Below are positions 2,220 to 21,739 of a stretch of DNA of 23,880 bases, piece by piece (position 1 is the first letter of the stretch; the number at the start of each line of letters is the position of its first letter). A program made the translations under genes and the position numbers. The notes below the pieces were generated by a model that ran no database searches, had not been told where the DNA came from, and saw only the letters and a program-made list of their open reading frames with translations. The stretch lies in the IMG/VR virus record IMGVR_UViG_3300006865_000030, positions 1 through 23,880 of that record; one strand, written 5' to 3'. Source of the DNA: a virus.

Positions 2220-2546
2220 ATGGCGACACCATCGTTGTCTGCAATCAACAAGCGGCTGAATCAGCACAGTAAAAAAATAGCCGTTATCGAACAGCAGCAG
2301 CAGGAACAGCACAAACTGCTGACCAGCATCGACAAGAAATTATCCGATGAGTATTTCGAGCAGGTAAAAATGCTGTACGAATACGTCATTGTCGGAAACG
2401 GACAGCCGTCCCTCAAATCGTGGCGTAATGAAATTGATAAGGAACGTCAAGGGGGAGTCAAATGGGGCGACAGGTTATGGCAAATTCTACAGGCAATTAT
2501 TTTGATTATAGCGGGCGGTGTGATTAGCAGGTATATTCAATGGTAA
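2220..2546 (+). CDS. XhlA-like coiled-coil/TM lysis protein
   Basis: A 108-aa protein with an N-terminal heptad-rich, Gln-rich coiled coil (residues about 5-42, AVIEQQQQEQHKLLTSIDKK) and one C-terminal transmembrane helix (about 86-105) ending in RYIQW. This architecture matches XhlA-type hemolysin/holin-accessory proteins, which lie beside holin and endolysin genes and help release lysin or anchor to the membrane. The stop overlaps the muramidase start (ATGGTAA). The ribosome-binding site is weak and the upstream region is strongly structured, so translation may depend on RNA folding. A spanin-like or purely structural role remains possible. Confidence 0.6.
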   Translation: MATPSLSAINKRLNQHSKKIAVIEQQQQEQHKLLTSIDKKLSDEYFEQVKMLYEYVIVGNGQPSLKSWRNEIDKERQGGVKWGDRLWQILQAIILIIAGGVISRYIQW

Positions 2547-3673
2547 TCGACAGAATCAAACAATATATTCATTCATTGTTTTACGATGACGAAAACAGCC
2601 GCGAACGAAATCGCATCATGCACTCTGCGGTATTGGGCGCGGTGACGGCGTTATCCATGCCGGATTTTTCCCGCGTCTGGGGCGTGGACATCTCCCACTG
2701 GGATGGTAATGTATCGTTGTCTGTAACGCGCTCTTTGGGCGCGTCTTTTGTTTTTATCAAGGGGCTGGACGGCACGTTGTCCACGCGGTATTTTGCCGAA
2801 AACCGGCAGCGTGCGCTGGCTGCCGGACTGCCTCACGCGCCCTATCAGTGGTTGTATCGTCATGCCAATGTGTCCTGTACCGCGCAGGCGCAGGCAATGA
2901 AATCATTATTGGACAGCTATCCGTCCGTTTTGCCGCCGGTCATCGATTTCGAGTGGACATATTGGGGGGGGGCGCAATCGAATCCGTCCTGGTCGGATTT
3001 GGATATCTACGTGACCGAGTTATTGCGGCTCGGCGTCCGCAAGCCCATCCTCTATACGGCGGAGGGATACGCCAATCAATTCGGACGGATGCCGGATGCG
3101 CTGCGTGAGAAATTTTCGGCGTTTTGGTTTGCCAATTATGGCGTGACCAGTCCCGCGCTGCCACAGGGATTTACGACATGGGATTTCTGGCAGTTTTCAT
3201 CCAACGGTGACGCGGCAGTAGTGTCGCCCAACGATGTCGGCAAAAAAGAGGTCGATTTGAATTACGTTATCAGCGCGGCGCGCTTAAACGAATTGACAGG
3301 AGGAGGAACGACAATGCTTTGGTATAAAGCGATTGGAAATATTACCATGCGGACGGCGGCAAGCAGCACGTCGCCCGCGGCGCAGATTAATGGCGTAACG
3401 CAGTACGTGCTTGTGGGGGATTATGTCGAAACGTCCAAAGAGTCCGGCGGGTTTGTGCTGTTGAATCGGGTGTACCGCAACGGTGGATTTGTCGAACTGC
3501 CTCAGCCTCCGGTTTGGTGCGGCATGGCATATCTGGAAGCCTCCGACCCTCCGGTGTTGGAGCCGCCAGCTTCCGTGCATGTGACGCTGGTCTCCGATAT
3601 CACGCTGGATGTGGACGGCAAACGATACGGAGCGCAGGTAATCAATGAGAACGTGGAGTTGACGCCCAAATGA
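2540..3673 (+). CDS. Endolysin: GH25 muramidase with C-terminal SH3-like wall-binding region
   Basis: Hydrolyses the beta-1,4 bond between N-acetylmuramic acid and N-acetylglucosamine in peptidoglycan at the end of infection. The GH25 domain spans residues about 46-250: GVDISHWDGN holds the first acidic residue (D50), VIDFEW holds the catalytic pair D136/E138, then FWFANY, WDFWQFS and a closing VDLNY follow in the usual order. A TGGGTT linker (about 253-258) leads to a beta-rich, SH3-like region (about 259-335) and a short C-terminal beta module. Residues 1-40 are an unusual extra N-terminal extension without a clear signal peptide. A nine-G run (2964-2972) lies just after the catalytic motif. 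An internal start at 3314 is described separately. Confidence 0.9.
   Translation: MVIDRIKQYIHSLFYDDENSRERNRIMHSAVLGAVTALSMPDFSRVWGVDISHWDGNVSLSVTRSLGASFVFIKGLDGTLSTRYFAENRQRALAAGLPHAPYQWLYRHANVSCTAQAQAMKSLLDSYPSVLPPVIDFEWTYWGGAQSNPSWSDLDIYVTELLRLGVRKPILYTAEGYANQFGRMPDALREKFSAFWFANYGVTSPALPQGFTTWDFWQFSSNGDAAVVSPNDVGKKEVDLNYVISAARLNELTGGGTTMLWYKAIGNITMRTAASSTSPAAQINGVTQYVLVGDYVETSKESGGFVLLNRVYRNGGFVELPQPPVWCGMAYLEASDPPVLEPPASVHVTLVSDITLDVDGKRYGAQVINENVELTPK
3298..3316 (+). promoter_or_regulatory. Strong internal ribosome-binding site and ATG within the endolysin
   Basis: AGGAGGAGG at 3298-3306, a 7-nt spacer and ATG 3314 form a near-ideal initiation site in frame with the endolysin. It sits exactly at the linker between the catalytic domain and the wall-binding region, and is stronger than the site before the gene's own ATG. 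Initiation here would give a 119-aa protein (residues 259-377) holding only the C-terminal domains. Such internal starts are established for several phage endolysins. The Gly-Gly-Gly codons of the linker could produce the motif by chance. Confidence 0.5.
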
Positions 3674-4428
3674 CGCTGACAGTTGACCAATATCTTCTGA
3701 TGACCGTCCGCCAGCCGTCGGTCGTTACCATCCCCTATTGGGCGCGGGTCAAATGGGATTGGGAGCGGACGAGCGATGGGATGCCGAGGATGTTGTCTGT
3801 CGATTACAAGCCGCCGACATACGGGTATCCTGGCGGGCTGCCGGATACGAACAAGACCTATTTCGACCAGTTTTTCGAGCTGGTCAAAAAAGCGCAGTAT
3901 CTCTGGTATGATCTCAACTGTATTGCCCAATATGGGAAATCATCGAAGGCGTTATCTGCCTCTCAGTCCAAAGCGGCGCGGCAGTCGTGGAAGAGTTTAA
4001 CGGCTTCCGGGCGGGCGCTGACCAACGGCAGGAGCCGCGAGGAGGGATATGCTGATTATGTGCTGGGTATCAATATCGGCGCGGCGAAAGGCGGCATCCA
4101 GCAAGAGAATCTGGTGCTGGGCGGAAATACAGTCAAAGTCATTGGAGAGCGTGAGATGCTGGGCGGAAAATGGTATCTCCCGGTTGCCGCCGTCGATTTG
4201 AGTAAACCGCTTCCCGCTGCCGCAGACCTATTTCGTGACAAAACATTATGTCATTGGTGTACCAATTCTACGCCGATTCCCGTCATGTCTGGAGGATACA
4301 GGATCGACCCATTCCCGCAATTCGGCGGGAGGGCGGTCTATCTCCTGATAGGACGCGGCGGCAGAGTGTATATCGAGGAACGATTATTGGAGCCTGTAGA
4401 GAGTATTCTATCGCCGTTTTATCCGTGA
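3670..4428 (+). CDS. Unknown protein coupled to the endolysin
   Basis: A 252-aa protein with ATGA overlap to the muramidase gene. It begins with an aromatic-rich region (PYWARVKWDWERTSDGMPRM), has a central Ser/Ala/Lys-rich helix (about 90-115) and a beta-rich C-terminal half (GGNTVKVIGEREMLGGKWYLPV and MSGGYRIDPFPQFGGRAVYL) resembling SH3-like barrels. No signal peptide, TM segment or catalytic motif is recognised. Translational coupling to the lysin suggests a lysis-related or wall-associated role, but a virion surface protein is equally compatible, since the adhesin module follows shortly after. Confidence 0.6.
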   Translation: MTLTVDQYLLMTVRQPSVVTIPYWARVKWDWERTSDGMPRMLSVDYKPPTYGYPGGLPDTNKTYFDQFFELVKKAQYLWYDLNCIAQYGKSSKALSASQSKAARQSWKSLTASGRALTNGRSREEGYADYVLGINIGAAKGGIQQENLVLGGNTVKVIGEREMLGGKWYLPVAAVDLSKPLPAAADLFRDKTLCHWCTNSTPIPVMSGGYRIDPFPQFGGRAVYLLIGRGGRVYIEERLLEPVESILSPFYP

Positions 4429-5219: not shown

Positions 5220-6749
5220 ATGGCAGTTCGTTTCGACAGTACTTCCGACCGGGTGTTACATAGCAACCCGGACGTGGACGGCGATGATTTATATACTGCC
5301 GCAGCGTGGTTTTACCGCGTCGGCACGCCGTCGGCATACGGTACGCTCTATACGCTCAACACCAACGACACGGCGGGGAATACCAACATCGACGCGGTGC
5401 TTATCGACAGTTCCAACCGGCTGCAGTCCTACGTCGGCGATTCCATCGATTCCGGTTTCAGCTCGCCCGGCACGACGTTGAGCGCGAACACATGGTATTA
5501 CATCGCGTGGGTCAACAGCTCGCTGGGTGTCAATGGATTCAAGGTCTACGTCAACGGTGTGCTGGATACCGAAAATGCCTATGACCGCACGGGACGAACC
5601 GCTGCGTTCACGCGCGAGGAGATGGGAGCGATTTATTCCATCAATCAATATCTGTTCAACGGACGCGTGTCCAATTTCATGTTTTGGCGGCGGGTATTGA
5701 CGGCGAACGAAATCATCCGGCAGATGGGGCAGTTCGAGCCGATTTATCCCAATGATTTGCGTGTTTGGTCTCCATTCCGTGACCGCGGGACAGCCCGGCT
5801 GATGGAGTATTCCCGCGGCAACAATTGGACGGCAGCCGGGACGCTGACCGATGAGGCAGACCCGACATTATTTAATTATGTCTCCAACCGTCGTTATTTT
5901 TTTGGGCTGCCGTTGTACATTCCGGATACGTCCAGCCCGGTGTCCATTACGCTGGACACGGCGAGCGTTTCGGCTTCCGGGCAGCCGCTGACCATCGTTC
6001 CCGGCGCGGTGTCTGTGTCGCTGGCGACTGCGCTGGCGCAGGCTTTGGGTCAGGCGGCGTCCATCGTATCCACAGTATCCATACCATTGGATACGGCAAG
6101 CGTTTCCGCCTCCGGGCAGTCGTTGACGGTCGTTCCTGGTGCGGCGGCGGTGGCGTTGAGTTCGGCGGTAGTTTCTGCTATTGGGCGGGCATTGTCGGTT
6201 GTTCCGGGAGCGCGCACCATTACACTTTCCACCAGCCTGCTGACCGCGTCCGGGCAGACGCTTTCCGTCCATGTCGGGTATACTGTGGCATTGGACACAG
6301 CGGTCATCTCTGTCAATGGACAATCCATGACAGTCGTTCCCGGCGCGGTATCCACCGCGTTGGACACCGCCAGTTTGACCGCCTCCGGCGTTTCTCTGTT
6401 GGTCGTTCCCGGCGCGGTGTCTACAGCGCTGCAGACCGCCAGCCTGCTTGCCGATGGTACAGCGTTATCCGTTGTTCCCGGCGCGGCGCTTGTCGTTCTG
6501 GATACGGCGTCGGTACAGGCGGACGGACAGACCATCGCCGTCGTACCCGGAGGCGTAACCATCCTGTTGGATACTGCTGCTTTGATTGCCGGAGGACAGG
6601 CGGTCGATGTGTCCGCCCTCGGTGAGTTGATTGCCACTGTACGGGCGTGGACGCTGGATGACCGCGCCCTGAATTGGACGCTGGATGACCGCGCCCTGAA
6701 TTGGACGCTGGATGATAGAGACTTGGATTGGAGTGTCGATGACAGATAA
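5220..6749 (+). CDS. LamG-domain adhesin with two sets of tandem repeats
   Basis: A 509-aa virion protein. Residues about 1-200 form a concanavalin/LamG-like jelly roll (DDLYTAAAWFYR, NTWYYIAWVNSS, GFKVYVNGVLDT, FNGRVSNFMFWRRVLTANEI), a fold that often binds glycans. Residues about 241-466 hold roughly ten 22-23-aa units ending VVPGA (LDTASVSASGQSLTVVPGA type), predicted beta structure forming a stalk. Residues 477-508 are four nonapeptide units WTLDDRALN, WTLDDRALN, WTLDDRDLD and a shortened WSVDDR. The domain order suggests a receptor-binding or head-decoration fibre. It lies upstream of terminase, far from the tail tip genes, which leaves its attachment site open. Confidence 0.7.
   Translation: MAVRFDSTSDRVLHSNPDVDGDDLYTAAAWFYRVGTPSAYGTLYTLNTNDTAGNTNIDAVLIDSSNRLQSYVGDSIDSGFSSPGTTLSANTWYYIAWVNSSLGVNGFKVYVNGVLDTENAYDRTGRTAAFTREEMGAIYSINQYLFNGRVSNFMFWRRVLTANEIIRQMGQFEPIYPNDLRVWSPFRDRGTARLMEYSRGNNWTAAGTLTDEADPTLFNYVSNRRYFFGLPLYIPDTSSPVSITLDTASVSASGQPLTIVPGAVSVSLATALAQALGQAASIVSTVSIPLDTASVSASGQSLTVVPGAAAVALSSAVVSAIGRALSVVPGARTITLSTSLLTASGQTLSVHVGYTVALDTAVISVNGQSMTVVPGAVSTALDTASLTASGVSLLVVPGAVSTALQTASLLADGTALSVVPGAALVVLDTASVQADGQTIAVVPGGVTILLDTAALIAGGQAVDVSALGELIATVRAWTLDDRALNWTLDDRALNWTLDDRDLDWSVDDR
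5940..6617 (+). repeat. About ten tandem 66-69-bp repeats encoding the VVPGA beta units
   Basis: Units of 22-23 codons recur with consensus LDTAsvsAsGQsLtVVPGAvs. Copies near 5940, 6078 and 6350 to 6420 are closest, and GTTCCCGGCGCGG recurs almost unchanged in several units. Units 2 and 5 have lost the PGA ending. Such repeats allow length change by recombination. Confidence 0.75.
6648..6746 (+). repeat. 27-bp tandem repeats encoding WTLDDRALN
   Basis: Copies at 6648-6674 and 6675-6701 are identical in DNA, the third (6702-6728) starts the same and then diverges, and the fourth (from 6729) is a shortened, degenerate WSVDDR. The identical pair implies recent duplication. The next gene's ribosome-binding site lies inside the last copy. 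Confidence 0.8.
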
Positions 6750-7792: not shown

Positions 7793-8185
7793 ATGGAAAG
7801 CAAAAAACGCAAACGCGGTAATCCGGCGTGGGTGAAAGGCGGCAAGTCTCCTAACCCCTCCGGGCGTCCAAAAGACGGCGAGTCCTGGGCGTCTATTATC
7901 AAGGCGGTGGGTGATATGTATCCCGCCGATATTATCGCGTTTGTCGGCAGGGATAACGACCTGGGCAAAATGTTAGCGAAACTGCCTCAGGGCGTCCAAA
8001 TGAAATATCTCGTGACCGCGCGTGTTTTCAGCGCGTTGATGTTCGAGCCATCCTCTGGATTGTGGAAAGAATTAATGGAACGCGCTGACGGGAAAGTGCA
8101 AAGTCTGGTGGATATTACCAGTGGAGGCGAGCCGGTCAAAGGTTATATTGGATTTTCACCGGACGAATGGGAAGATAATTCATGA
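7793..8185 (+). CDS. terS: Small terminase subunit-like protein (DUF5681-type N-terminus)
   Basis: A 130-aa protein that opens with the basic motif GNPAWVKGGKSPNPSGRPKD, matching the DUF5681 signature (KPGQSGNPxGRPKG) found in phage small terminases and DNA-packaging proteins. A helical middle region (SWASIIKAVGDMYP...) and an acidic C-terminus (SPDEWEDNS) follow. Its ATGA overlap with the large terminase gene strongly supports a role in recognising phage DNA and loading it onto TerL. The start follows an AT-rich spacer with only a weak ribosome-binding site. The packaging site may lie in or near this gene but is not visible. Confidence 0.75.
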   Translation: MESKKRKRGNPAWVKGGKSPNPSGRPKDGESWASIIKAVGDMYPADIIAFVGRDNDLGKMLAKLPQGVQMKYLVTARVFSALMFEPSSGLWKELMERADGKVQSLVDITSGGEPVKGYIGFSPDEWEDNS

Positions 8186-9462
8186 CGACCGTCATTGCGC
8201 CATATAAACCGCTGCCATGGCAGATTAAGCCGCTGGCTGATAAATCACAAACGCTTTTGTTGACAGGTTCGGCGGGCGGAGGTAAATCGCGCTGTGCCGC
8301 CGAAAAGGTCAATATGTATTGTTGGAAATATCCGGGTTCCACCTGGCTGATTTGTCGTAAAGCGCGTGAGTGGAACGGACATTCCATCATTCCGTTCATG
8401 TGGAAAACAGTCATGGGCATGGATAAGCGTATCAAGTTCAACGTCTCGAATGGTACGTTCCTGTACCCCAACCAGTCCATGATTTATTCCGCCGGAATGT
8501 ATGATGAACGGCAGCGGCAGGCGGCGCGTTCTATTGGCGGTGATGGTGGGCTGGATGGCGCGTGGCTGGAGGAGGCAAACGCATTCACACGGCAGGATTA
8601 CGAGGAAATCATTGGACGCGTACGACATACGGCGGCAGACTGGCAGCAAATCATCCTGACTACCAATCCTGATTCGCCGACCCATTGGATTTACACTGAC
8701 CTGATACAAGGCGGCGGCGCGGCAGTATATTACAGCAGCGCGTCGGACAATCCGAACAACTCAGCGGCGTACATCAACAACCTGCAGAAGATGACCGGTG
8801 TGCTGAAAGAGCGTTTGGTGTACGGCAGATGGGTACAGGCGGAGGGCGCGATATATGATGAGTATGACCCGCTTGTGCATTGTATCGACGCCGACAAAGT
8901 GCCTCCATTCATCCGGCGTTTTCGTGTGGTGGACTTTGGATATACTAATCCGTTTGTTTGTCAATGGTGGGGCATGGATGCTGATGGGCGATTGTATCTA
9001 TATCGTGAGTTATACGTCACGCAGCGTCTGGTGGAGGACTTAACGCGTCAAATCCTGCGATTGACCGGAGATGAATCGATTGAGGTGACTGTTGCCGACC
9101 ATGACGCCGAGGACAGGGCGACCATGGAGCGGCATGGCATTAGTACAACGCCGGCATATAAGGACGTATCATCCGGTATTCAGGCGGTCAAATCGCGCTT
9201 GGCGGTGCAACCGGACGGTAAGCCGCGGTTGTACTTTGTCCGCAATGCTCTGGTGCGCGTGGACGAATTGTTGGAAGCAGCCAAAAAACCATTTTGCACG
9301 GAGCAGGAAATTACCGGGTATGCGTGGCGCAAGTATGATGACGGGAAGCCGAACAAAGAGGAACCCGTCAAAATCAATGATCATGGTATGGACTCTATGC
9401 GGTATATAGTCATGTATGTTGACGGCAGACCGGATGCCACGAAACTGGTGGATTGGGTATAA
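8182..9462 (+). CDS. terL: Terminase large subunit (ATPase and nuclease)
   Basis: The motor that packages DNA into the prohead and cuts it. In the ATPase domain, Walker A is GSAGGGKS (residues 29-36), Walker B with catalytic acid is LDGAWLEEAN (124-133), and the coupling motif is TTNP (160-163). The RNase H-like nuclease domain has VVDFGYTNP (acid D251), VADHDAED (D306/D308) and a third acidic site at NDHGMD (D400/D404), in the normal spacing. Length 426 aa is normal for the family. It is flanked by TerS (ATGA overlap) and the portal, the standard packaging order. Confidence 0.95.
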   Translation: MTTVIAPYKPLPWQIKPLADKSQTLLLTGSAGGGKSRCAAEKVNMYCWKYPGSTWLICRKAREWNGHSIIPFMWKTVMGMDKRIKFNVSNGTFLYPNQSMIYSAGMYDERQRQAARSIGGDGGLDGAWLEEANAFTRQDYEEIIGRVRHTAADWQQIILTTNPDSPTHWIYTDLIQGGGAAVYYSSASDNPNNSAAYINNLQKMTGVLKERLVYGRWVQAEGAIYDEYDPLVHCIDADKVPPFIRRFRVVDFGYTNPFVCQWWGMDADGRLYLYRELYVTQRLVEDLTRQILRLTGDESIEVTVADHDAEDRATMERHGISTTPAYKDVSSGIQAVKSRLAVQPDGKPRLYFVRNALVRVDELLEAAKKPFCTEQEITGYAWRKYDDGKPNKEEPVKINDHGMDSMRYIVMYVDGRPDATKLVDWV

Positions 9463-9477
9463 CGAGGAGATGAGATA

Positions 9478-11058
9478 ATGGCATTCTTTGGACTGATAAC
9501 GCGCCGGGAACATGCGGAGATGATGGAGGCTCTTAAAGCCGACTTCATGAAAAATCTTCCGAAATTTCTGTTGGAAACGGCAGATGTCGAGAAATGGAAC
9601 TTGCCCAATCCTGCGGTGTACGAAAATCAAGCCGATTTATTCCGCAAACTGTCATGGGTATTACAGGCGGTGGACATCACCGCCTCGGCAGCCGCATTGA
9701 CTCCGTTAAGCGTCAAGCGCATTGTGTCGGGAGTCGAGCCGAAAAAAATACCACATCACGAGTTCGAGATGTTATTATTACATCCGAATCCGCTTGACTC
9801 TCGTTATGAGTTTTTATACGGAACGATTTCCATGATGATGTTGACCGGGAATGCGTATTGGTATCTCAGTTGTGACAGCGAAAACGAACCGCCCAGCGAA
9901 TTGTGGCTAATACCGTCTCACATGATAGAACCCATTCCGGACGGGCGGATGTACATTCGCGGATACAAATACAACCCTGGCAACGGAACGGAAATATTTC
10001 TGGAGAAATGGCAGATTTGTCATTTTCGCAGGTTCAATCCATTCAGTCGTTTTGTCGGATTGTCGGCTATTGAGTCCATTGCCATGACATCCCAGATGGA
10101 TTTGGCGATGCAGGAGTGGAATACAAAATTCTTTGGCGAATATAACGCCCGCCTGCCGGGTATCTTGACGTTTGAACAAATGATTGCCGACACGACCTGG
10201 GATGACATAAAAAAGAATACGCGGGAGGCGTCCAAAAAACGGGAATTACTGATGCTGCGCGGCGTCGGACAGGGCGCGGTACAATGGATGCAGAACGCGG
10301 TCAGTCAGAAGGAGATGGAATTTCTCAACGGGCGCATGTTCAACCGGGATGAGATTTGGAACACGCTCGCGCCGGGAATGGTATCCATGTTAAGCGAAAA
10401 CGCAACCGAAGCAAATTCAAGAACGGGCGCGGCGGTTTTCAACGAACGGACTATTTACCCAAAACACATTCTGATATCGCAAAAGGTGACGAATGAAATC
10501 CTGCCGCGTTACGGAGGGCGTCCTCTATTGTGTGAGTTTGATGACATCCGTGTGGTAGACCGTCAGTTACAAATGGACGAACAGCGGCTATATAGTGAAT
10601 CGCATACTATCGCCGAAATCCGCAAAAAATATTATAACGAGGAGCCGCTTGGAGACGAGCGGGACGAATTATTTCCGTCGCAGGTTACGGCGTCTGCCGT
10701 TCAACCTGCCGATGCGGAATTTAATAATGACGAACTGGAACGAAACACCAATGAACAGAAAATAACGGATGAGGAGAAGGAAAAAGAAAAACAGGCGCAG
10801 GCAACAAAAGCAGTTTTGGATGAACTTGGACGCTGGGAACGAAAAGCGTTGCGCTTGATTGGAAAAAAGACTGAGTTCATTAGCGACACCATTCCGGAAT
10901 ACATTGTGAAATATGTCGAGAAACGTCTGCCCGGCTGCTTATCAGAAACGGCGGTCAAGGCAGTATTTGATACTGCCCGCCGGGATGTAATGCCGCAGCC
11001 ACCGGAGGCGGAGCTGGTTTTGCGTGGTTTGATTGAAACGTTGAGGACATTGCGATGA
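9478..11058 (+). CDS. Portal protein (HK97/SPP1-like), with long C-terminal extension
   Basis: Forms the dodecameric ring at one capsid vertex through which DNA passes. Typical features are the clip/wing region LLLHPNPLDSRYEFLYGTIS, GNAYWYLSCD, ELWLIPSHMIEPIPDGR, WQICHFRRFNPFSRFVGLSAIE, and the C-terminal EATEANSRTGAAVF/ERTIYP-type segment. Residues past about 400 form a charged coiled-coil and helical extension (EEKEKEKQAQATKAVLDELG and beyond), making it longer (526 aa) than many portals of 400-450 aa. The start is set by a strong GAGGAG site. The stop overlaps the next gene (ATGA). Gene order after TerL confirms the call. Confidence 0.92.
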   Translation: MAFFGLITRREHAEMMEALKADFMKNLPKFLLETADVEKWNLPNPAVYENQADLFRKLSWVLQAVDITASAAALTPLSVKRIVSGVEPKKIPHHEFEMLLLHPNPLDSRYEFLYGTISMMMLTGNAYWYLSCDSENEPPSELWLIPSHMIEPIPDGRMYIRGYKYNPGNGTEIFLEKWQICHFRRFNPFSRFVGLSAIESIAMTSQMDLAMQEWNTKFFGEYNARLPGILTFEQMIADTTWDDIKKNTREASKKRELLMLRGVGQGAVQWMQNAVSQKEMEFLNGRMFNRDEIWNTLAPGMVSMLSENATEANSRTGAAVFNERTIYPKHILISQKVTNEILPRYGGRPLLCEFDDIRVVDRQLQMDEQRLYSESHTIAEIRKKYYNEEPLGDERDELFPSQVTASAVQPADAEFNNDELERNTNEQKITDEEKEKEKQAQATKAVLDELGRWERKALRLIGKKTEFISDTIPEYIVKYVEKRLPGCLSETAVKAVFDTARRDVMPQPPEAELVLRGLIETLRTLR

Positions 11059-11860: not shown

Positions 11861-12676
11861 ATGCCGGATATATCACAATACGACAATATGGATGATTGGA
11901 TGAGCGCGTGCATCCCCGTCAGGATAGCGGAGCGGGATGACCGTGACCAGGCGGTGGCGGTCTGCATGAGTCAGTGGACGGAAAAGAACGCCGCGAAATA
12001 TTCTACTTTATGGAACGCGATAAAAGCGGTCGGCGATTGGGAACTGGATGTTCTGGCGATTCCGTTTCACGTCAAGGATTCGGATGGGCAATGGTTCGAT
12101 GAGCAGACGGACATTATGCCTGATGCGTTTCAAACGCCGCTGATTGTATATCAGCATGGCATTGAACAGGGAGCAAAACGGATGCAGGAAAAGCCGCTGA
12201 TTATTGGTAAGAGCGTCGCCGGCACGCTCAAAAAAATGGTGGATGGTTGGCATGTACGAGTCATTTTGGACAAGACGGTTCAGGCTGCCAAGACCGTCAT
12301 GGATGCAGCCAAGCGCGGTATGGTGTCTGTGTCCAGCGGTTCTATTTCTCATTTGGCGCGGCTGGACATTGGTGGAAAATTGATTAAGTATGAGAAAAAC
12401 AGACCGGGACGAATTGCGGTATGGGCTTTGGGAGAGGTGTCATTATGGGAACGCGGCAATGGGAACATTACGCCCGCCTCTCCTTTCGCGGTTGCCATGC
12501 CGGTTATGAAGGCAATGTATCGGGATGCTGGACTGCCGTTCCCCGATTTGCGCAATATCCATGGCGATGTGCCAGAGGCGGATGACGCGGCGCACCGCGC
12601 GAGAATTGCGGAAATCAAACGGGAGACAAACAGGCATTTGTCCAATATCGAAAAACTATTAGGAGAATCATCATGA
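11861..12676 (+). CDS. Prohead maturation protease (HK97 S78-like)
   Basis: A 271-aa protein, counted from ATG 11861. ATGs at 11852 and 11855 are also possible, but ATG 11819 lies inside the terminator loop. The N-terminal segment MDDWMSACIPVRIAERDDRDQAVAVCMSQW contains a conserved Cys-x-P...DQAVAxCxSxW motif seen at the front of phage capsid-protease proteins. The protease part has the candidate catalytic His in LIVYQHG (H99) and Ser in GMVSVSSGS (S156 or S158), then RPGRIAVWALGEVSLWERG. It should cleave the capsid delta domain during maturation. The ATGA overlap with the capsid gene supports the call. Confidence 0.8.
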   Translation: MPDISQYDNMDDWMSACIPVRIAERDDRDQAVAVCMSQWTEKNAAKYSTLWNAIKAVGDWELDVLAIPFHVKDSDGQWFDEQTDIMPDAFQTPLIVYQHGIEQGAKRMQEKPLIIGKSVAGTLKKMVDGWHVRVILDKTVQAAKTVMDAAKRGMVSVSSGSISHLARLDIGGKLIKYEKNRPGRIAVWALGEVSLWERGNGNITPASPFAVAMPVMKAMYRDAGLPFPDLRNIHGDVPEADDAAHRARIAEIKRETNRHLSNIEKLLGESS

Positions 12677-14241
12677 ACGAATTAGAGGAAAAACTGCAAA
12701 AAATCCGCGGCGAACTGCGAAAGCTGGTCGCTTTGGAAAATCCATCTGACGAACAGGTGGAAAAAATGAGTCAGTACAACAAGGACGCGGTCAAGCTGGA
12801 AGCGCAAATCGAAACCGAACGCCAGCTTGAAAAAGCGGAGCGTGAGGAAAAAGAGCGTCACGAGCGGGAGATTCAGGACGCCGTCAAGAAAGCCCGTGAG
12901 GAAGAGGCTGCCAAAGCGCGCCGGTTGCAATACGCCGAAGCTCCCTATCAAACGGTATTCCACGACACCGACAAGTACGACAATCTCAACGCTGGCGAAA
13001 CCGCTCTGGTAATCGACATCCTGCAGTCGCGCGGTCTGCCGGTATCCGGCGCGGCATTCAAAGCGTTATCGCTCAAAATCGGCGAACTGAGCGACCGCAC
13101 CAATACCGAAGAGGGACAGCGCGCAGTGAACTATGTCAAAAACGCATTCAAAGCCGCGACCCGCATCGAACCGACCCCTGAGGGAACCTCTGCCGCTGTG
13201 AAAGCGGCGACCGACCCGATGTATACCGGCGGAAACGGTATCGGAAGCGATTGGGTGGGAACTGCCTACTCATCGGAAATGTGGCAGAGTATTCGCGCCA
13301 ACAATCAGGTCATTGGGCGCATCCCTGAAACTGTCGTACCTGACGGATATTCCAGTGTGTATATTCCGCTTGAATCATCCGACCCGACATGGTACAAGGT
13401 GGCTGAGGCTACTACCTCTGACGCCACACTGAAAGTCCCGGCTGCCACTGTTACCGCGTCACAATTTGCCACTGCCAACAAGCAGATTACGCTCGGCAAA
13501 CTGGGCGCGCGTGTATTGTATTCCGGTGAGATGGTCGAGGATTCACTGATTGCCTTTGCACCGGAGGCACGCCGAAAATTGGTCGTGTCTGGTACGGAAA
13601 TTCTGGAACACCTGGCAATCGACGGCGACGTGGAGACATCAGCGAACAAGAACATCAACGATATTGCCGGTACTCCGGCAGGAACCGAGCCGTTCCTGTT
13701 GGTGGATGGGTTCCGCAAGTTGGCTCTTGTGACCAATACGGCAAACAGCGTTTCAGCCGGCGGCTCGTTTGTGGTTGAGAATTTCAAGAATACTCTCAAA
13801 CTTATGGGAACCGCTGGACTGAATGGCGCAGACCCGCGGGCTGTTGCGTTCATTCTGGACTACAACACGATGTGGGCTGCGCTGGACTTGCCGGAAATCA
13901 AGACGCGCGATGTGTTCTCACCGGCGACCATCGAAAATGGATTCCTGACCCGCATCTATAATACGCAGGTTCTGTACGCGTACCAGATGCACAGGTACGC
14001 GACCGACCGCAAGGCGAATACTGCCGGCAAAATCGACCAGGACACCACGTCCAATAACACTACCGGTTCGATTTTGGCGGTTCGTTTCGACCAGTGGAAG
14101 CAAGCGTACAAGCGGCGCATGAATTTGGAGACCACTCGTATTTCCAACGCTGACGCGTGGGAGGTGGTTGCGATGGTACGTTGGGGAATGGCATACCGCG
14201 ACAGTGAGGCGAGCGCTATTACCTACAACGTGGGCGTGTAA
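12673..14241 (+). CDS. Major capsid protein with N-terminal scaffold-like domain (HK97 fold)
   Basis: A 522-aa protein. Residues about 1-90 form a highly charged coiled coil (KLEAQIETERQLEKAEREEK...) resembling the HK97 delta domain, expected to be removed by the upstream protease. The remainder has HK97-fold features: an N-arm and E-loop region (GIGSDWVGTAYSSEMWQSI, VIGRIPETVVPDGYSSVYIP), the spine helix region (LIAFAPEARRKLVVSGTEIL) and the A-domain to C-terminal segment (RFDQWKQAYKRRMNLETTRI). AGGAG at 12661-12665 precedes the ATG, which overlaps the protease stop. No separate scaffold gene is seen, as in HK97. Confidence 0.92.
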   Translation: MNELEEKLQKIRGELRKLVALENPSDEQVEKMSQYNKDAVKLEAQIETERQLEKAEREEKERHEREIQDAVKKAREEEAAKARRLQYAEAPYQTVFHDTDKYDNLNAGETALVIDILQSRGLPVSGAAFKALSLKIGELSDRTNTEEGQRAVNYVKNAFKAATRIEPTPEGTSAAVKAATDPMYTGGNGIGSDWVGTAYSSEMWQSIRANNQVIGRIPETVVPDGYSSVYIPLESSDPTWYKVAEATTSDATLKVPAATVTASQFATANKQITLGKLGARVLYSGEMVEDSLIAFAPEARRKLVVSGTEILEHLAIDGDVETSANKNINDIAGTPAGTEPFLLVDGFRKLALVTNTANSVSAGGSFVVENFKNTLKLMGTAGLNGADPRAVAFILDYNTMWAALDLPEIKTRDVFSPATIENGFLTRIYNTQVLYAYQMHRYATDRKANTAGKIDQDTTSNNTTGSILAVRFDQWKQAYKRRMNLETTRISNADAWEVVAMVRWGMAYRDSEASAITYNVGV

Positions 14242-14921: not shown

Positions 14922-15283
14922 GACGGATTGCCATTGCATTGACAACCAACGCGTCAGGCGCGGCGTCCGCTTTTGGCGACACGGTGGTCGGAAAAATGTA
15001 TGCCGTGCAATATCAGCCAGGGACGATTGATACCGGAGCGACACTGACGTTGACCTGTGAATCTGATTCGTCCAAACCGTTATTGACCAAAGCCACCGCG
15101 GGAACTGCCAATGTGTTTTTCTATCCGCGTGATCTAGTCCACGCCGTTGCCGACGGCTCGGCGTTGACCGGAACGAGCGGCGGAGACCGGGCTTGTCCTA
15201 TTGTGGACGGACGAATCAAGGCAGTAATTGCATCCGGCGGAGATACAAAGAGCGGAACCGTGATTGTCTATGTTGACGATTGA
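14918..15283 (+). CDS. Beta-rich structural protein after the capsid gene (121 aa)
   Basis: Begins MRRIAIALTTNASGAASAFG and contains GKMYAVQYQPGTIDTGATLTLT, ANVFFYPRDLV and GRIKAVIASGGDTKSGTVIVYVDD. The YPRDLV...DG...DGRIK arrangement occurs in a family of small phage proteins encoded near head genes, thought to be virion decoration proteins; their function is not established. It is coupled to the previous gene by ATGA overlap, and its end overlaps the next gene by 14 nt. Confidence 0.55.
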   Translation: MRRIAIALTTNASGAASAFGDTVVGKMYAVQYQPGTIDTGATLTLTCESDSSKPLLTKATAGTANVFFYPRDLVHAVADGSALTGTSGGDRACPIVDGRIKAVIASGGDTKSGTVIVYVDD

Positions 15284-15923
15284 GCAATGCTGGAACAGAC
15301 ACGCCGGACAGACCTGTTTGATTGTCGGCGTTGCGCCTAATCTCAAACTCACCCCGCCTCCGTTGTTTTCATTCCCATCATTCGGTGTAAACACCATCTA
15401 CAAACAGACCGAATGGGATTGGAAGCCCACCTATTACGTCGGTGTCGATGAGCGGTTGAGAATTGAGGATGGTGACGTGGTGTGTTCCGTGTATAGTGAT
15501 GTTCCCAAGTTTTTTCCGTCGCCAGACTGGGATAAACAGCAGGGCAAAAATATTTTGCGCTTTGTTCACAGGCAAGGCGGAAATCTGTATGTTGGCGGTC
15601 AATTGGCGAACCACAAGGAGGCATTGGTTAAACACGGTATCACCTATCATTACATTATGGGCGCGGTGTTTCAAATTGCGTGGCACATGGGATTTACGAC
15701 CATGTTGATTATCGGTATGCAGCATAATCCGCAGGATACCCGCGCCCACTTTTGGGGACAGGATACCGCCGCCGTGGTACAGCCGCAGGAACCGTGGTTC
15801 GATGAATACCGAACGTTTCGAGGCATGATGACGAACGTGACCATGCTGAATATTTCGCCGGACACTTATGTCCCCGAAGAAGTCATTCCTCGGGATGACT
15901 GGCAAAAATGGATAATACAATGA
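15270..15923 (+). CDS. MptE/DUF115-like Rossmann-fold protein in the head operon
   Basis: A 217-aa protein from ATG 15270; an in-frame TTG at 15264 also exists. The N-terminal TCLIVGVAPNL is a Rossmann-type beta-turn-alpha motif, then FGVNTIYKQTEWDWKPTYYVGVDERL matches the pattern of MptE-like/DUF115 and sialyltransferase-like proteins (GxGPSL, FGVN, P.YYVGxD). The C-terminal YHYIMGAVFQIAWHMGFTTMLIIGMQHN matches the later A...A..lG...i.liG.D segment, with H and W in AHFWGQD. Such proteins act in glycan or nucleotide-sugar chemistry, but the substrate here is unknown. Lying between head decoration and connector genes, it may be an accessory cargo gene (moron) or modify virion or host surface sugars. 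Confidence 0.55.
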   Translation: MLTIEQCWNRHAGQTCLIVGVAPNLKLTPPPLFSFPSFGVNTIYKQTEWDWKPTYYVGVDERLRIEDGDVVCSVYSDVPKFFPSPDWDKQQGKNILRFVHRQGGNLYVGGQLANHKEALVKHGITYHYIMGAVFQIAWHMGFTTMLIIGMQHNPQDTRAHFWGQDTAAVVQPQEPWFDEYRTFRGMMTNVTMLNISPDTYVPEEVIPRDDWQKWIIQ

Positions 15924-17627: not shown

Positions 17628-17848
17628 AAACTATACGTTTTTTGTTCAGCGGTATTTTTGAAATCAATGGGCGCGCTCTTCCATTTTTACAAGGCGACAT
17701 CATCGACGTGGAGGACGCTGACGCCGACCGGTTGATTATCGGATTATGCGCTGTCGAAGTGACGAACAACACAACAGATGAAATAATCATTGTGGAAGAA
17801 TCACCCCGCGAAAAGGAGTTGAAACATGGCAGGAAGAACCGTACTTAA
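17624..17848 (+). CDS. Small tail-region protein, possible paralogue of the 64-aa head-module protein
   Basis: A 74-aa protein, MKTIRFLFSGIFEINGRALPFLQGDIIDVEDADADRLIIGLCAVEV, followed by an acidic tail and a basic end (GRKNRT). It shares the layout of the protein at 14727-14921 (short beta start, G.iiDv.d.dA..Li..g.A..v, charged tail). The start overlaps the previous stop (ATGA), and the end overlaps the next gene by 23 nt, which contains that gene's AAGGAG ribosome-binding site. Function is unknown. Confidence 0.55.
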   Translation: MKTIRFLFSGIFEINGRALPFLQGDIIDVEDADADRLIIGLCAVEVTNNTTDEIIIVEESPREKELKHGRKNRT

Positions 17849-18596
17849 ACACGCCAGAATATATGTCGATGGATATGACCTGTCTGGATACTCCCGCTCG
17901 TTTGGCCCGCTGATGTGTCAGTTCGATGATGCGGATTTGACCTGCATTACGGATGCGGTCAAGGGCGCGCTGCCAGGACATGCCACACTCGGCATTGGCA
18001 CGCTCAATGGCGTGATGGATAATACCGCCTCCAGCGGACTACATGCCGTCATCAACGCGCCCGGACAACAGCGCACCGTCATGGCGGTCATTGGAATCAA
18101 TGCGGCTCCGGCACAGGGCGACCCGGCATATTGCGCCATGCTGGAGCAGAAAGACTATCAATTAGAACCAAATGCCGCCGGCGTGTATGTCAACGTTGCG
18201 TTCGACAAAACCTCCAGCGCGGCGACATCGTTATTGTACGCTAATCCGTGGGGCTGGCTGCTACATGCCAAAGGAGCGGAAACAGCAGTCAATACGGCGG
18301 TGGGTATTGACGACAACGGCGGAGCGAGCGCGTATGGCGGTTATATGATGTATCAGGTGTTTGCCGGCAACGGCACAGCGACCATCAAGGTACAGGACGC
18401 CGCGACCAACAGCAACGGGTCATTTGCCGACCTGTCCGGCGCGACCAGCGGCAGCATTGATTGCAGTACGCCGAAACATGGCGTGGTGGCGTTGAGCCGG
18501 ACGGCGACCGTGCGCCAGTATCTACGCTGGCAGATTGTGCTGGGTACGGCGACAACCGTGACATTCGCGTTGGCGTTTGTCCGGGCGAAATACTAA
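17826..18596 (+). CDS. Tail tube protein A (major tail protein-like, 256 aa)
   Basis: Begins MAGRTVLKHARIYVDGYDLSGYSRSFG, the typical start of siphophage tube proteins that list a small beta domain and a DAVKGALPGHATLGIGTLNG segment. The middle is mostly beta, and the C-terminal part (TIKVQDAATNSNGSFADLSG, RTATVRQYLRWQIVLG, TVTFALAFVRAKY) resembles a domain found in other phage tube proteins. AAGGAG at 17813-17818 sets the start. It is followed by a shorter related protein, so one may be the tube and the other a tail initiator or capping version; the sequence cannot decide. Confidence 0.65.
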   Translation: MAGRTVLKHARIYVDGYDLSGYSRSFGPLMCQFDDADLTCITDAVKGALPGHATLGIGTLNGVMDNTASSGLHAVINAPGQQRTVMAVIGINAAPAQGDPAYCAMLEQKDYQLEPNAAGVYVNVAFDKTSSAATSLLYANPWGWLLHAKGAETAVNTAVGIDDNGGASAYGGYMMYQVFAGNGTATIKVQDAATNSNGSFADLSGATSGSIDCSTPKHGVVALSRTATVRQYLRWQIVLGTATTVTFALAFVRAKY

Positions 18597-18611: not shown

Positions 18612-19097
18612 ATGGCAGTACAAACAGGACGTACAACGAATAAGTGGGTTGATTTCCGCGTGGATGATTCCGGCGGGACGCTGCGCAGTATCCCGGTGGA
18701 TACCATCAATGGCGTTGGATTGGTATATGACGAGGTGGAATTAACGGCGTTTCAGGACGCTATCAAAGGCGTATTGCCTGCTCACCCGGATTGCACCATT
18801 ACCATCTCGGGCCCGTTCGACACATCGGCGGCTGCGACTGCCGGCACGCTGTCCGGCTCGCATACGATATTGAGCGGTATCGTTGGTGGCAATACTCCAT
18901 TATCGCTGGATGTACAGGTCGGTATCCGTCACGCATGGGAGGCAGGCGAGCCGCAATTCGGCATTACCTCCACATCCACCAGCGGATTTCTGTGTTTCGA
19001 TTATCAGCCCGATTTGAACACTGGAAAATACACCGCAAAATTCCGCATGTTTCCCGGCTCGGCGGCTCCGGCATGGGGTACAGCGGCTGAAACCTAA
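18612..19097 (+). CDS. Tail tube protein B (related to tube protein A, 161 aa)
   Basis: Opens MAVQTGRTTNKWVDFRVDDSG and contains LTAFQDAIKGVLPAHPDCTITISGPFD, which matches the DAVKGALPGHATLGIGTLNGVMD segment of the upstream protein in order and spacing. The protein ends in a beta region (FGITSTSTSGFLCFDYQPD, GKYTAKFRMFPG). AGGAG lies upstream. The small size and place directly before the G/GT chaperones match the usual position of the major tail tube protein, so it is the stronger candidate for the tube itself. Confidence 0.65.
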   Translation: MAVQTGRTTNKWVDFRVDDSGGTLRSIPVDTINGVGLVYDEVELTAFQDAIKGVLPAHPDCTITISGPFDTSAAATAGTLSGSHTILSGIVGGNTPLSLDVQVGIRHAWEAGEPQFGITSTSTSGFLCFDYQPDLNTGKYTAKFRMFPGSAAPAWGTAAET

Positions 19098-19099
19098 TC

Positions 19100-19480
19100 A
19101 TGAAACGAGTCGAATCGCCCGTAGAACGCTGGGCAGGATACGTCATCCTACATGAGCCGCTGTTATACTCGCATATACGCGCCATTGAGGACGCGCAAGA
19201 CGCGGCGGCGGAAACCGAACCGTCCAGTTTTCTGTCCATTGTAGATGAAAATGGAACGATAACCAAAAAATTATACTGGTTATCCAAACTGGATTATTTA
19301 CGGTTGACTGCCATTCTGCCATGTGTGGTGGAGTGGCATTTAACCGGCGTGGACGATAAGCCGACACCAGATACATTTCCGATGACGCCGCGCTCTGATT
19401 CCAGCCGTCTGATTGCATGGCTGTGGGATGAGCTGTACAAAATCTATAACGGAGAGACCGAAGTCCCAAACGAGTCCTGA
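19100..19480 (+). CDS. Tail assembly chaperone, gpG-like
   Basis: A 126-aa helical protein starting 2 nt after the tube gene and ending at TGA 19478-19480. It has the size and place of lambda gpG homologues, which bind the tape measure during tail assembly. Middle helices include KKLYWLSKLDYLRLTAILPC and RLIAWLWDELYKIYNGE. The last codons contain the slippery heptamer CCCAAAC in the zero frame as C CCA AAC, allowing a fraction of ribosomes to shift to the -1 frame and make the longer GT form. The ribosome-binding site is weak, so coupling to the tube gene is likely. Confidence 0.8.
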   Translation: MKRVESPVERWAGYVILHEPLLYSHIRAIEDAQDAAAETEPSSFLSIVDENGTITKKLYWLSKLDYLRLTAILPCVVEWHLTGVDDKPTPDTFPMTPRSDSSRLIAWLWDELYKIYNGETEVPNES

Positions 19481-19513
19481 CCGCCGCCTATCAGTCGGCA
19501 GAGGGCGGCGGTC
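19465..19513 (+). promoter_or_regulatory. -1 programmed ribosomal frameshift signal (CCCAAAC plus stem-loop)
   Basis: The slippery heptamer CCCAAAC is at 19465-19471 with codons CCA and AAC in the zero frame, the X XXY YYZ pattern. A 7-nt spacer (19472-19478) is followed by GACCGCCGCC (19479-19488), which pairs perfectly with GGCGGCGGTC (19504-19513): a 10-bp GC-rich stem with a 15-nt loop. The zero-frame stop is at 19478-19480, and the -1 frame stays open to 19740. Confidence 0.9.
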
Positions 19514-19740
19514 TAAGTCCCGAACTACAACTGGCTGGATTGCTGGATAGATACGGAGCGCAGGCGGTATTGAATCGTCCATTGTACGCGCGCGAAATAT
19601 ATCGGATTGCGGCAGCGGAATCAATTGTCAACGCATACCGGCAGCGGCAGCGGTCGAGGGATTGGAGACGCTGGGCGCATGATAACCCGGAGGCGGCGCG
19701 GCTGTTAGCGCATGTGGAGAAATTAATTAATGGCGGATAG
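19471..19740 (+). CDS. GT extension: -1-frame part of the tail assembly chaperone fusion
   Basis: This is the -1 reading frame entered by slippage at CCCAAAC; the fused product begins at 19100 and is 213 aa (124 from G plus 89 from this frame). The frame reads RVLTAAYQSAEGGGLSPELQ and then a conserved-looking helical region (REIYRIAAAESIVNAYRQRQ, ending KLINGG). Upstream in this frame a stop at 19447-19449 blocks independent translation from further upstream, and the only ordinary starts (such as 19540) lack a good ribosome-binding site. The end overlaps the tape-measure start by 11 nt, as in other phages. Confidence 0.82.
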   Translation, partial: RVLTAAYQSAEGGGLSPELQLAGLLDRYGAQAVLNRPLYAREIYRIAAAESIVNAYRQRQRSRDWRRWAHDNPEAARLLAHVEKLINGG

Positions 19741-21739
19741 TGTTAGAATTACCATTGAGGCGGATGACAAGACAGCGGCAGGCATCGCGTCGGCAGTTAC
19801 CAACCTTGGCAAGTTAGAAAAAGCCGCAACGAAAGCCAAGGGGAATAAAGGCGGCGGAACCGGCATTGGCGGATTGGGCGCGGCGTTTGATAACTTGAAC
19901 CGACTGTTGTCCGGTATCGGTCTGCCTGTATTGGGTTGGACGGCTGTTGTCGGCGGCGCGGTGGCGGTCGCCAAAAATGCAATTGCCACCACCGCCAAAT
20001 ACAGTGAAGAAGTACGCGACCTATCCTATGTGACCGGCACGGGAGCGGAAAGCACCTCCCGTCTGCTGCAGGTGTTGGATGACTACCAAATTGGCGCGCA
20101 GGACGTGGAGGTGGCGACCAAAGCCCTGACGAAAAACGGATTGGCTCCCACCGTAGAAACGCTGGCGCAATTGTCCGATGAATATCTACAAATCACAGAC
20201 GCGCAGGAACGCAATGAGTTCGTCCTAAAAAATCTCGGCAAAGCCGGTTTGAATTGGGTTAACTTCCTGTCACAGGGAAGAGACGCCATTTTGTCGCTCA
20301 ATGACGGTGTCAATCAAAATTTGATTTTGACCGATGAGGAAATCGCCCGGTATGAAAAATACCGTCTGGCAATTGATAATGTACGCGATACAGTGGACGG
20401 CTGGAAGGTTGCAACGGTAAACGCGGTTTTGGACGTGAACGAAAATCTTGAAATGTATCACGACAAAATCAAACTCGGCACAGAATTGGCGGAACGGTTT
20501 GGAATATCAGCGCGGTCACAAGCCGAATACAACGCGCAAATACGCGGTCTGGCTGATGAGTTTATCCGTGCTGAAAATTATGGACTGGCGTGGCAGCGCG
20601 TGCTGGAGGGCGGCGGCGCGGCAGCGCAGGACGCCAGTGTCAATTATGCCGACCTGCTGAAATACGGACAGGCTATCACGAAAACAAACGACTCGCTGGC
20701 TGAGTCGCAGGAGAAAATCAAAGCGCAGTTCGATAACAATGCGTTTGTCGCCGAGTTATTCAAATCCCGTGTCGGAGAATTGAAAGACCAGTTACAGGAC
20801 GGGGAAATTACCAATCAGGAGTATTATCAGTCGGTGGCGCAGTTGCAGCAGGCGTTTCGGGACGGGACATTCGCGGCGGAGGAACAGGCGCGGGCGTTAT
20901 CCGAATTGGAATCATCGGTGGACAAATCGGCGCAGGCGTTTGCGTTATCGCAGTTGGAGATGACTGGCGCAACGGAACGGCAAAAGGTGGAGTTTGCGCT
21001 GGCGAATGGACTGATTACCAGTCAGGCGGCAGACCAGGCGAAGGCGCAAATTAAACTGGCGGAGGCGTACACTGCCGGACGAATCAACGCCGAGCAATAC
21101 GCGGCGGCTGTCAATCAGGTATCCGGCGATTTGCAGTTGCTCAACGGACAGTCGGCGGAATCCTATGTGGACGTATATATCCGCTATCACGGACAGATGC
21201 CGCAATTCGTAAGTGGGCTGCATGAGCAATCAGACACACTGACCGGACCTCTGGCAGGCGGACGGGCTGGCGGCGGTATGATGTACAGCGACCGTCCGAC
21301 ACTGGTTGGCGATATGCCGGGCGGCAGGCTGACGCCATACTCCGAATTATTGTTACCGAGCGGTGAAATATTGGACGCTCAAACTACGCGCCGGGTATTC
21401 GAGATGGGATTATTATCCGGTGTGGATTCGGCGGCAGTTGGAAAATCGGCTGTCAGTATTTCCGATACTATCGGCAGAGGCAGGTTATCACGCCGCGCTG
21501 TAACGCCAAAGCGTAACCAGGTAATCGTGCCGCTGACCAAAAACGAAATTGCCGAGGAGTCTGTTGGGGAGATACAGACCCAAGCCGTAAGCAATCTGCA
21601 AATACAAGCGTTAAATCAGGCGACACAACAGACCAATAATAAGCTGGACATAATCGCCGGATACCTGGCGCGGCAATCCACGCGTCAGGATGATTTCGCC
21701 TCCGCGGCTTATGCCAGCCGGATGAACATCAATGGCTAG
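19730..21739 (+). CDS. Tape measure protein
   Basis: A 669-aa protein setting tail length and probably involved in DNA delivery. It begins MADSVRITIEADDKTAAGIA (a typical tape measure start), has a hydrophobic segment at about 59-86 (LSGIGLPVLGWTAVVGGAVA), long amphipathic heptad-like helices (about 200-480) and a Gly-rich C-terminal region (AGGRAGGGMMYSDRPTLVGD, LTPYSELLLPSGEILDAQTT) that resembles other tape measure C-termini. By the known rule of about 0.15 nm per residue, the tail would be near 100 nm. GGAG at 19716-19719 precedes the start. It follows the G/GT pair directly, the diagnostic order. Confidence 0.93.
   Translation: MADSVRITIEADDKTAAGIASAVTNLGKLEKAATKAKGNKGGGTGIGGLGAAFDNLNRLLSGIGLPVLGWTAVVGGAVAVAKNAIATTAKYSEEVRDLSYVTGTGAESTSRLLQVLDDYQIGAQDVEVATKALTKNGLAPTVETLAQLSDEYLQITDAQERNEFVLKNLGKAGLNWVNFLSQGRDAILSLNDGVNQNLILTDEEIARYEKYRLAIDNVRDTVDGWKVATVNAVLDVNENLEMYHDKIKLGTELAERFGISARSQAEYNAQIRGLADEFIRAENYGLAWQRVLEGGGAAAQDASVNYADLLKYGQAITKTNDSLAESQEKIKAQFDNNAFVAELFKSRVGELKDQLQDGEITNQEYYQSVAQLQQAFRDGTFAAEEQARALSELESSVDKSAQAFALSQLEMTGATERQKVEFALANGLITSQAADQAKAQIKLAEAYTAGRINAEQYAAAVNQVSGDLQLLNGQSAESYVDVYIRYHGQMPQFVSGLHEQSDTLTGPLAGGRAGGGMMYSDRPTLVGDMPGGRLTPYSELLLPSGEILDAQTTRRVFEMGLLSGVDSAAVGKSAVSISDTIGRGRLSRRAVTPKRNQVIVPLTKNEIAEESVGEIQTQAVSNLQIQALNQATQQTNNKLDIIAGYLARQSTRQDDFASAAYASRMNING

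Follow-up and report, generated by a model that had tools for sequence, protein, structure and literature searches.

The genes designated here G and T, located in the tail module of an uncultivated tailed phage from the environment, very probably form a -1 programmed ribosomal frameshift cassette that would make G and G-T tail assembly chaperones. We regard the frameshift as very likely because the slippery site and the stem to its 3' side are conserved, because both the conservation and the predicted fold of T start at the heptamer, and because a start codon for T is not conserved. The G/GT frameshift is a well-known phage trick and the textbook arrangement of long-tailed phages; here it occurs in a lineage for whose helper proteins no family match was obtained.

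The stretch of DNA analysed, referred to below as the window, is a 23,880-base IMG/VR virus record with a head and tail module. The phage collection contained no close DNA match to the window, and there were no Rfam or tRNA matches within it. Genes for the terminase (8182-9462), portal (9478-11058) and major capsid (12673-14241) are followed, on the plus strand, by those for a 256-aa major tail protein (17826-18596; PHROG 9522 major tail protein, E 2e-13) and a second, 161-aa major-tail-like protein (18612-19097; weakly similar to a PHROG major tail protein, E 0.0037) just 5' of G, then by G/T, and then by a long ORF at the tape-measure position (19730-21739, plus strand). The latter, a putative tape measure protein of 669 aa, is named in the window from its length and position only, and has a homologue at the same place in locus L002. 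The 2 major-tail-like genes adjoin, and the smaller is the better conserved. Elsewhere in the window we observed a GH25 lysozyme-type endolysin to the 5' side of the terminase (2540-3673), a LamG-domain protein that contains repeated segments and, at its C terminus, a series of WTLDDR-like repeats (5220-6749), and, between the capsid and tail genes, a 219-aa protein without a Pfam match (15264-15923), which is present as 2 diverged copies close together in several relatives.

G is a tail assembly chaperone-like ORF of 126 aa (19100-19480, plus strand, as are all elements of the cassette) that has an ATG start, ends in ...EVPNES, aligns with its relatives and gave an AlphaFold2 model of pLDDT 91.8. 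The heptamer CCCAAAC (19465-19471) lies in the zero frame of G as C_CCA_AAC, and is followed by a 7-nt spacer (19472-19478; of 24 loci measured, 23 have a spacer of 5-8 nt) and a putative stimulatory stem-loop (19479-19513, arms 19479-19489 and 19503-19513), the foot of which is overlapped by the zero-frame TGA of G (19478-19480). These relationships had been proposed in an earlier note on this DNA and were borne out at the base level. The position of the stem was also as described there, but the 10-bp perfect helix of that description was computed to be one of 11 bp, with 10 Watson-Crick pairs, one inner U-G pair and a 13-nt loop. T, the -1-frame extension of G (19471-19740), reads RVLTAAYQSAEGGG...EKLINGG; its frame is indeed open to the tape-measure start, for 89 codons from 19471 rather than for 90, with its stop at 19738-19740, and its end overlaps the tape-measure ATG at 19730. 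The expected G-T fusion is of 124 + 89 = 213 aa, with the junction EVPN-RVLT. As the note had anticipated, a gene caller would lose this fusion and output the 126-aa ORF and a truncated 66-aa ORF; the annotation at the cassette is corrected here.

Within the window alone, the bare heptamer was found 3 times against 3.4 expected, and the 121-nt fold had a z of -1.26 relative to dinucleotide shuffles. In-frame X_XXY_YYZ sites with Y = A or T numbered 12 per 6954 codons, and the chance that a given gene has one among its last three codons was ~0.5%. The evidence from the single contig is modest, and suggests that the cassette is real. As a single contig could be chance, relatives were fetched. 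A capsid search gave seven related loci, three of them with the tail region, and a search with an alignment of the 161-aa major-tail-like protein as query gave 33 loci, picked without reference to the cassette. From these 33, 24 distinct loci were kept after removal of copies, of cut or rearranged loci (L039 is rearranged), and of one locus without G and T. Locus L011, which has a closely related major-tail-like protein, contains only ~108 nt (3986-4095) between the major-tail-like gene and the tape measure position; G and T are missing from this interval, and no T was detectable in the rest of the 17-kb record. Four loci obtained by scanning with T, an Anaerolineales MAG (L046) and the window itself bring these 24 to the 30 loci discussed below, all of which are <70% identical in nucleotide sequence in the GT region; the four that came from T carry a bias towards the site, since PKR was part of one search pattern. 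When G, T or the tape measure was used as a single-protein query against IMG/VR, nothing was found, whereas the capsid and major-tail-like proteins worked. The complete T alignment was too diverse for use as a scan query, and a search for T homologues among 396 genomes of the host class gave one match, the MAG already known.

The earlier note had held that homologues keeping the ORFs and lacking both site and stem would speak against a frameshift. We looked for such homologues, and observed a slippery-type site at the homologous position in 24 of 24 unbiased loci and a stem in nearly all. The site in these 24 loci was CCCAAAC in 16, CCCAAAA in 5, CCCGGAA in 2 (L016:4425-4431 and L017:4268-4274) and CCCTTTG in one (L028); for all 30 loci, the corresponding numbers were 21, 6, 2 and 1. 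The window site conforms to the X_XXY_YYZ pattern of -1 frameshift signals. The site lies 0-2 codons 5' of the zero-frame stop in 27 of the 30 loci, and every one of them has an open -1 frame of 85-105 codons. The zero-frame Pro codon is CCA in 27/30 loci, as compared with 45 of 281 Pro codons (16%) in the window, and the codon to its 5' side ends in C in all 30 loci, against a background of 28% in the window genes. As second codon, 21 loci have AAC and 6 have AAA, whereas AAG does not occur. Individual loci showed further features. L017 has an additional C_CCC_CCG one codon 5' of its CCCGGAA. In the divergent locus L007 (15660-15760; L038:4400), CCCAAAA is followed by a long-range stem that encloses a second hairpin, and the zero-frame stop is 37 codons away. 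In L028 (3998-4220), G has an internal deletion and is split over different frames, either through decay or through an assembly error, and T is open.

Two tests support the view that the stem structure is maintained for its own sake, beyond the need to code for protein. In an arm-swap test, the 5' arm paired with its own 3' region at -21.6 kcal/mol and with those of other loci at -14.0 kcal/mol, a difference reached in 0 of 100,000 permutations. Also, the stem was stronger than in synonymous shuffles of T (mean z -2.4), with 28 of 30 loci below -1; L028, with its disrupted G, showed no excess structure, a point against the frameshift reading. Pairs +8 to +13 of the core were present in 21-22 of 22 loci, a count that is illustrative, with the arm-swap test as its control, in that the helix was picked in each locus to maximise pairing. 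G-C and C-G were both common at several of these pairs, and both sides changed between loci (covariation); no formal covariance model was built, since bulges keep MAFFT from aligning the 3' arms of the stem region. These observations indicate a structure under selection that starts 5-8 nt past the heptamer, inside the 5-9 nt expected of such signals. Pairing of the loop with downstream sequence, as in a candidate pseudoknot, was stronger for own than for swapped partners (p 0.0004), an effect due to a small number of long-looped loci. An upstream Shine-Dalgarno-like stimulator was rejected: anti-Shine-Dalgarno pairing was no better than after synonymous codon replacement (mean z -0.2) and its spacing varied; such a stimulator is optional in bacteria, so that its absence does not exclude a -1 frameshift signal. 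Nor do we claim compensation of CCCAAAA sites by weaker stems; the arm duplex was weaker (p 0.008), but the overall fold energy did not differ (p 0.98) and the most divergent loci drove the effect.

The T homologues align from the heptamer on, and conservation in the T frame starts at that point. The AlphaFold2 model of T (pLDDT 95.4) has its first helix at residues 2-15. It is improbable, in our estimation, that T is a separate protein made by termination-reinitiation or from its own start, although an ATG or GTG is present among the first three T-frame codons of 10/30 loci, in some cases as a TGATG or TAATG overlap with the end of G. Such a start is missing from the window and from 19 other loci, which have CTG, ATA, ATC, GCG or AAG instead, and the first ATG, GTG or TTG in the window T is a TTG at 19540, inside predicted helix 2, the use of which would remove helix 1. 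Moreover, what is conserved is the heptamer with its stem rather than a start codon, and reinitiation leaves the CCA and the C preceding it unexplained. In the window, T can be read solely by extending G in the -1 frame, and this extension is conserved in relatives. A chance site between unrelated overlapping ORFs, with which the heptamer frequency and fold z-score of the window would agree, is hardly credible in the face of 30-locus conservation, a covarying stem and homologous T frames; conservation in 29 other divergent loci puts the cassette far beyond chance. A sequencing indel or decayed gene splitting one ORF, for which the broken G of L028 might be cited, is equally hard to credit, as the same frame change occurs at the same codon in 30 divergent loci on separate contigs, all of which possess a slippery-type site and, with few exceptions, a stem.

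The chaperone roles of G and T are assigned by analogy, from gene order and anatomy. The G/GT naming used in the note is supported by the location between major tail protein and tape measure position and by the cassette itself, not by sequence homology, as none to known chaperones was detected and fold searches gave nothing significant. G matched nothing in Pfam or PHROG, and T nothing in PHROG, either singly or as 21-22 family members; the window T had no Pfam match, neither protein matched INPHARED, and no fold match to either reached an E below 0.001. Among the weak viral fold matches of G, which were all above that threshold, were a few named tail chaperones. Known tail chaperone pairs diverge widely, and family homology is not required (PMC5009743).

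The lambda heptamer is G_GGA_AAG. Relative to lambda gpG/gpGT, the window has a different heptamer, C_CCA_AAC, together with a strong downstream stem and no detectable sequence homology. Shared with lambda are the place between major tail protein and tape measure, the -1 shift near the end of G, and the C-terminal T extension (PMC5009743). The actinophage chaperone frameshifts (the SEA-PHAGES set used by PRFect, PMC10885494) likewise feature a -1 shift in paired chaperone genes, and their commonest "threetwotwo" motif, CCCGGAA, is that seen in L016 and L017; the present set differs in its dominant CCCAAAC site and in having no protein match in the phage collection. The g-t sites of the haloarchaeal siphoviruses HCTV-1, -2 and -5, G_GGA_AAC and A_AAA_AAC (PMC5009743), have AAC as second codon in common with the window site, but their hosts are archaeal and their first codon is not CCA. 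The window terminase shares 32-33% identity with its HCTV-1 and HCTV-5 counterparts.

In E. coli, C_CCA_AAG ranks among the best heptamers, and sites having mixed purine-pyrimidine second codons such as AAC shift less, although some insertion sequences probably make use of such sites all the same; C_CCA_AAC belongs to this weakly shifting class (PMC4066793). This counts against the frameshift reading, and the preference of the family for AAC is its least ordinary feature. The hosts of these phages are likely Chloroflexota, to judge from sequence matches: the contigs with capsid relatives belong to Anaerolineae MAGs, Herpetosiphonaceae MAGs and one MAG named only "bacterium", and one Anaerolineales MAG (L046) carries the whole cassette. 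In a more speculative reading, these phages may have come to favour C_CCA_AAC in combination with a strong stem, to the exclusion of AAG, either because a low shift rate is selected, or because the ribosomes or tRNA-Asn of the probable Chloroflexota hosts shift on AAC more readily than those of E. coli. A lack of queuosine in the tRNA-Asn of the hosts was not supported as the reason for AAC, as tRNA-guanine transglycosylase matches were present in 7 of 7 related-capsid MAGs, 6 of them above the family cut-off.

The sequence elements, their deep conservation, the covariation and the open, homologous T frames are direct observations; slippage, its frequency and translation of the fusion we infer from them, as follows. 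Most ribosomes would translate G and stop at the TGA at 19478. With CCA (Pro) in the P site and AAC (Asn) in the A site, the stem 7 nt downstream would hold the ribosome, and some ribosomes would slip back one base, the 2 tRNAs re-pairing with CCC and AAA; translation would then continue in the T frame to give the 213-aa G-T protein. By analogy with lambda, G may coat the tape measure protein, and a few G-T molecules may recruit the tail tube protein via the T domain.

In the aggregate, a G/GT frameshift appears to have been kept through deep divergence in environmental phages with chaperones that no sequence library recognises, and the recoding signal therefore marks these genes better than does protein sequence. 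The loci also provide ~30 natural variants of one cassette, with which the effect of heptamer and stem on the ratio of G to G-T could be measured.
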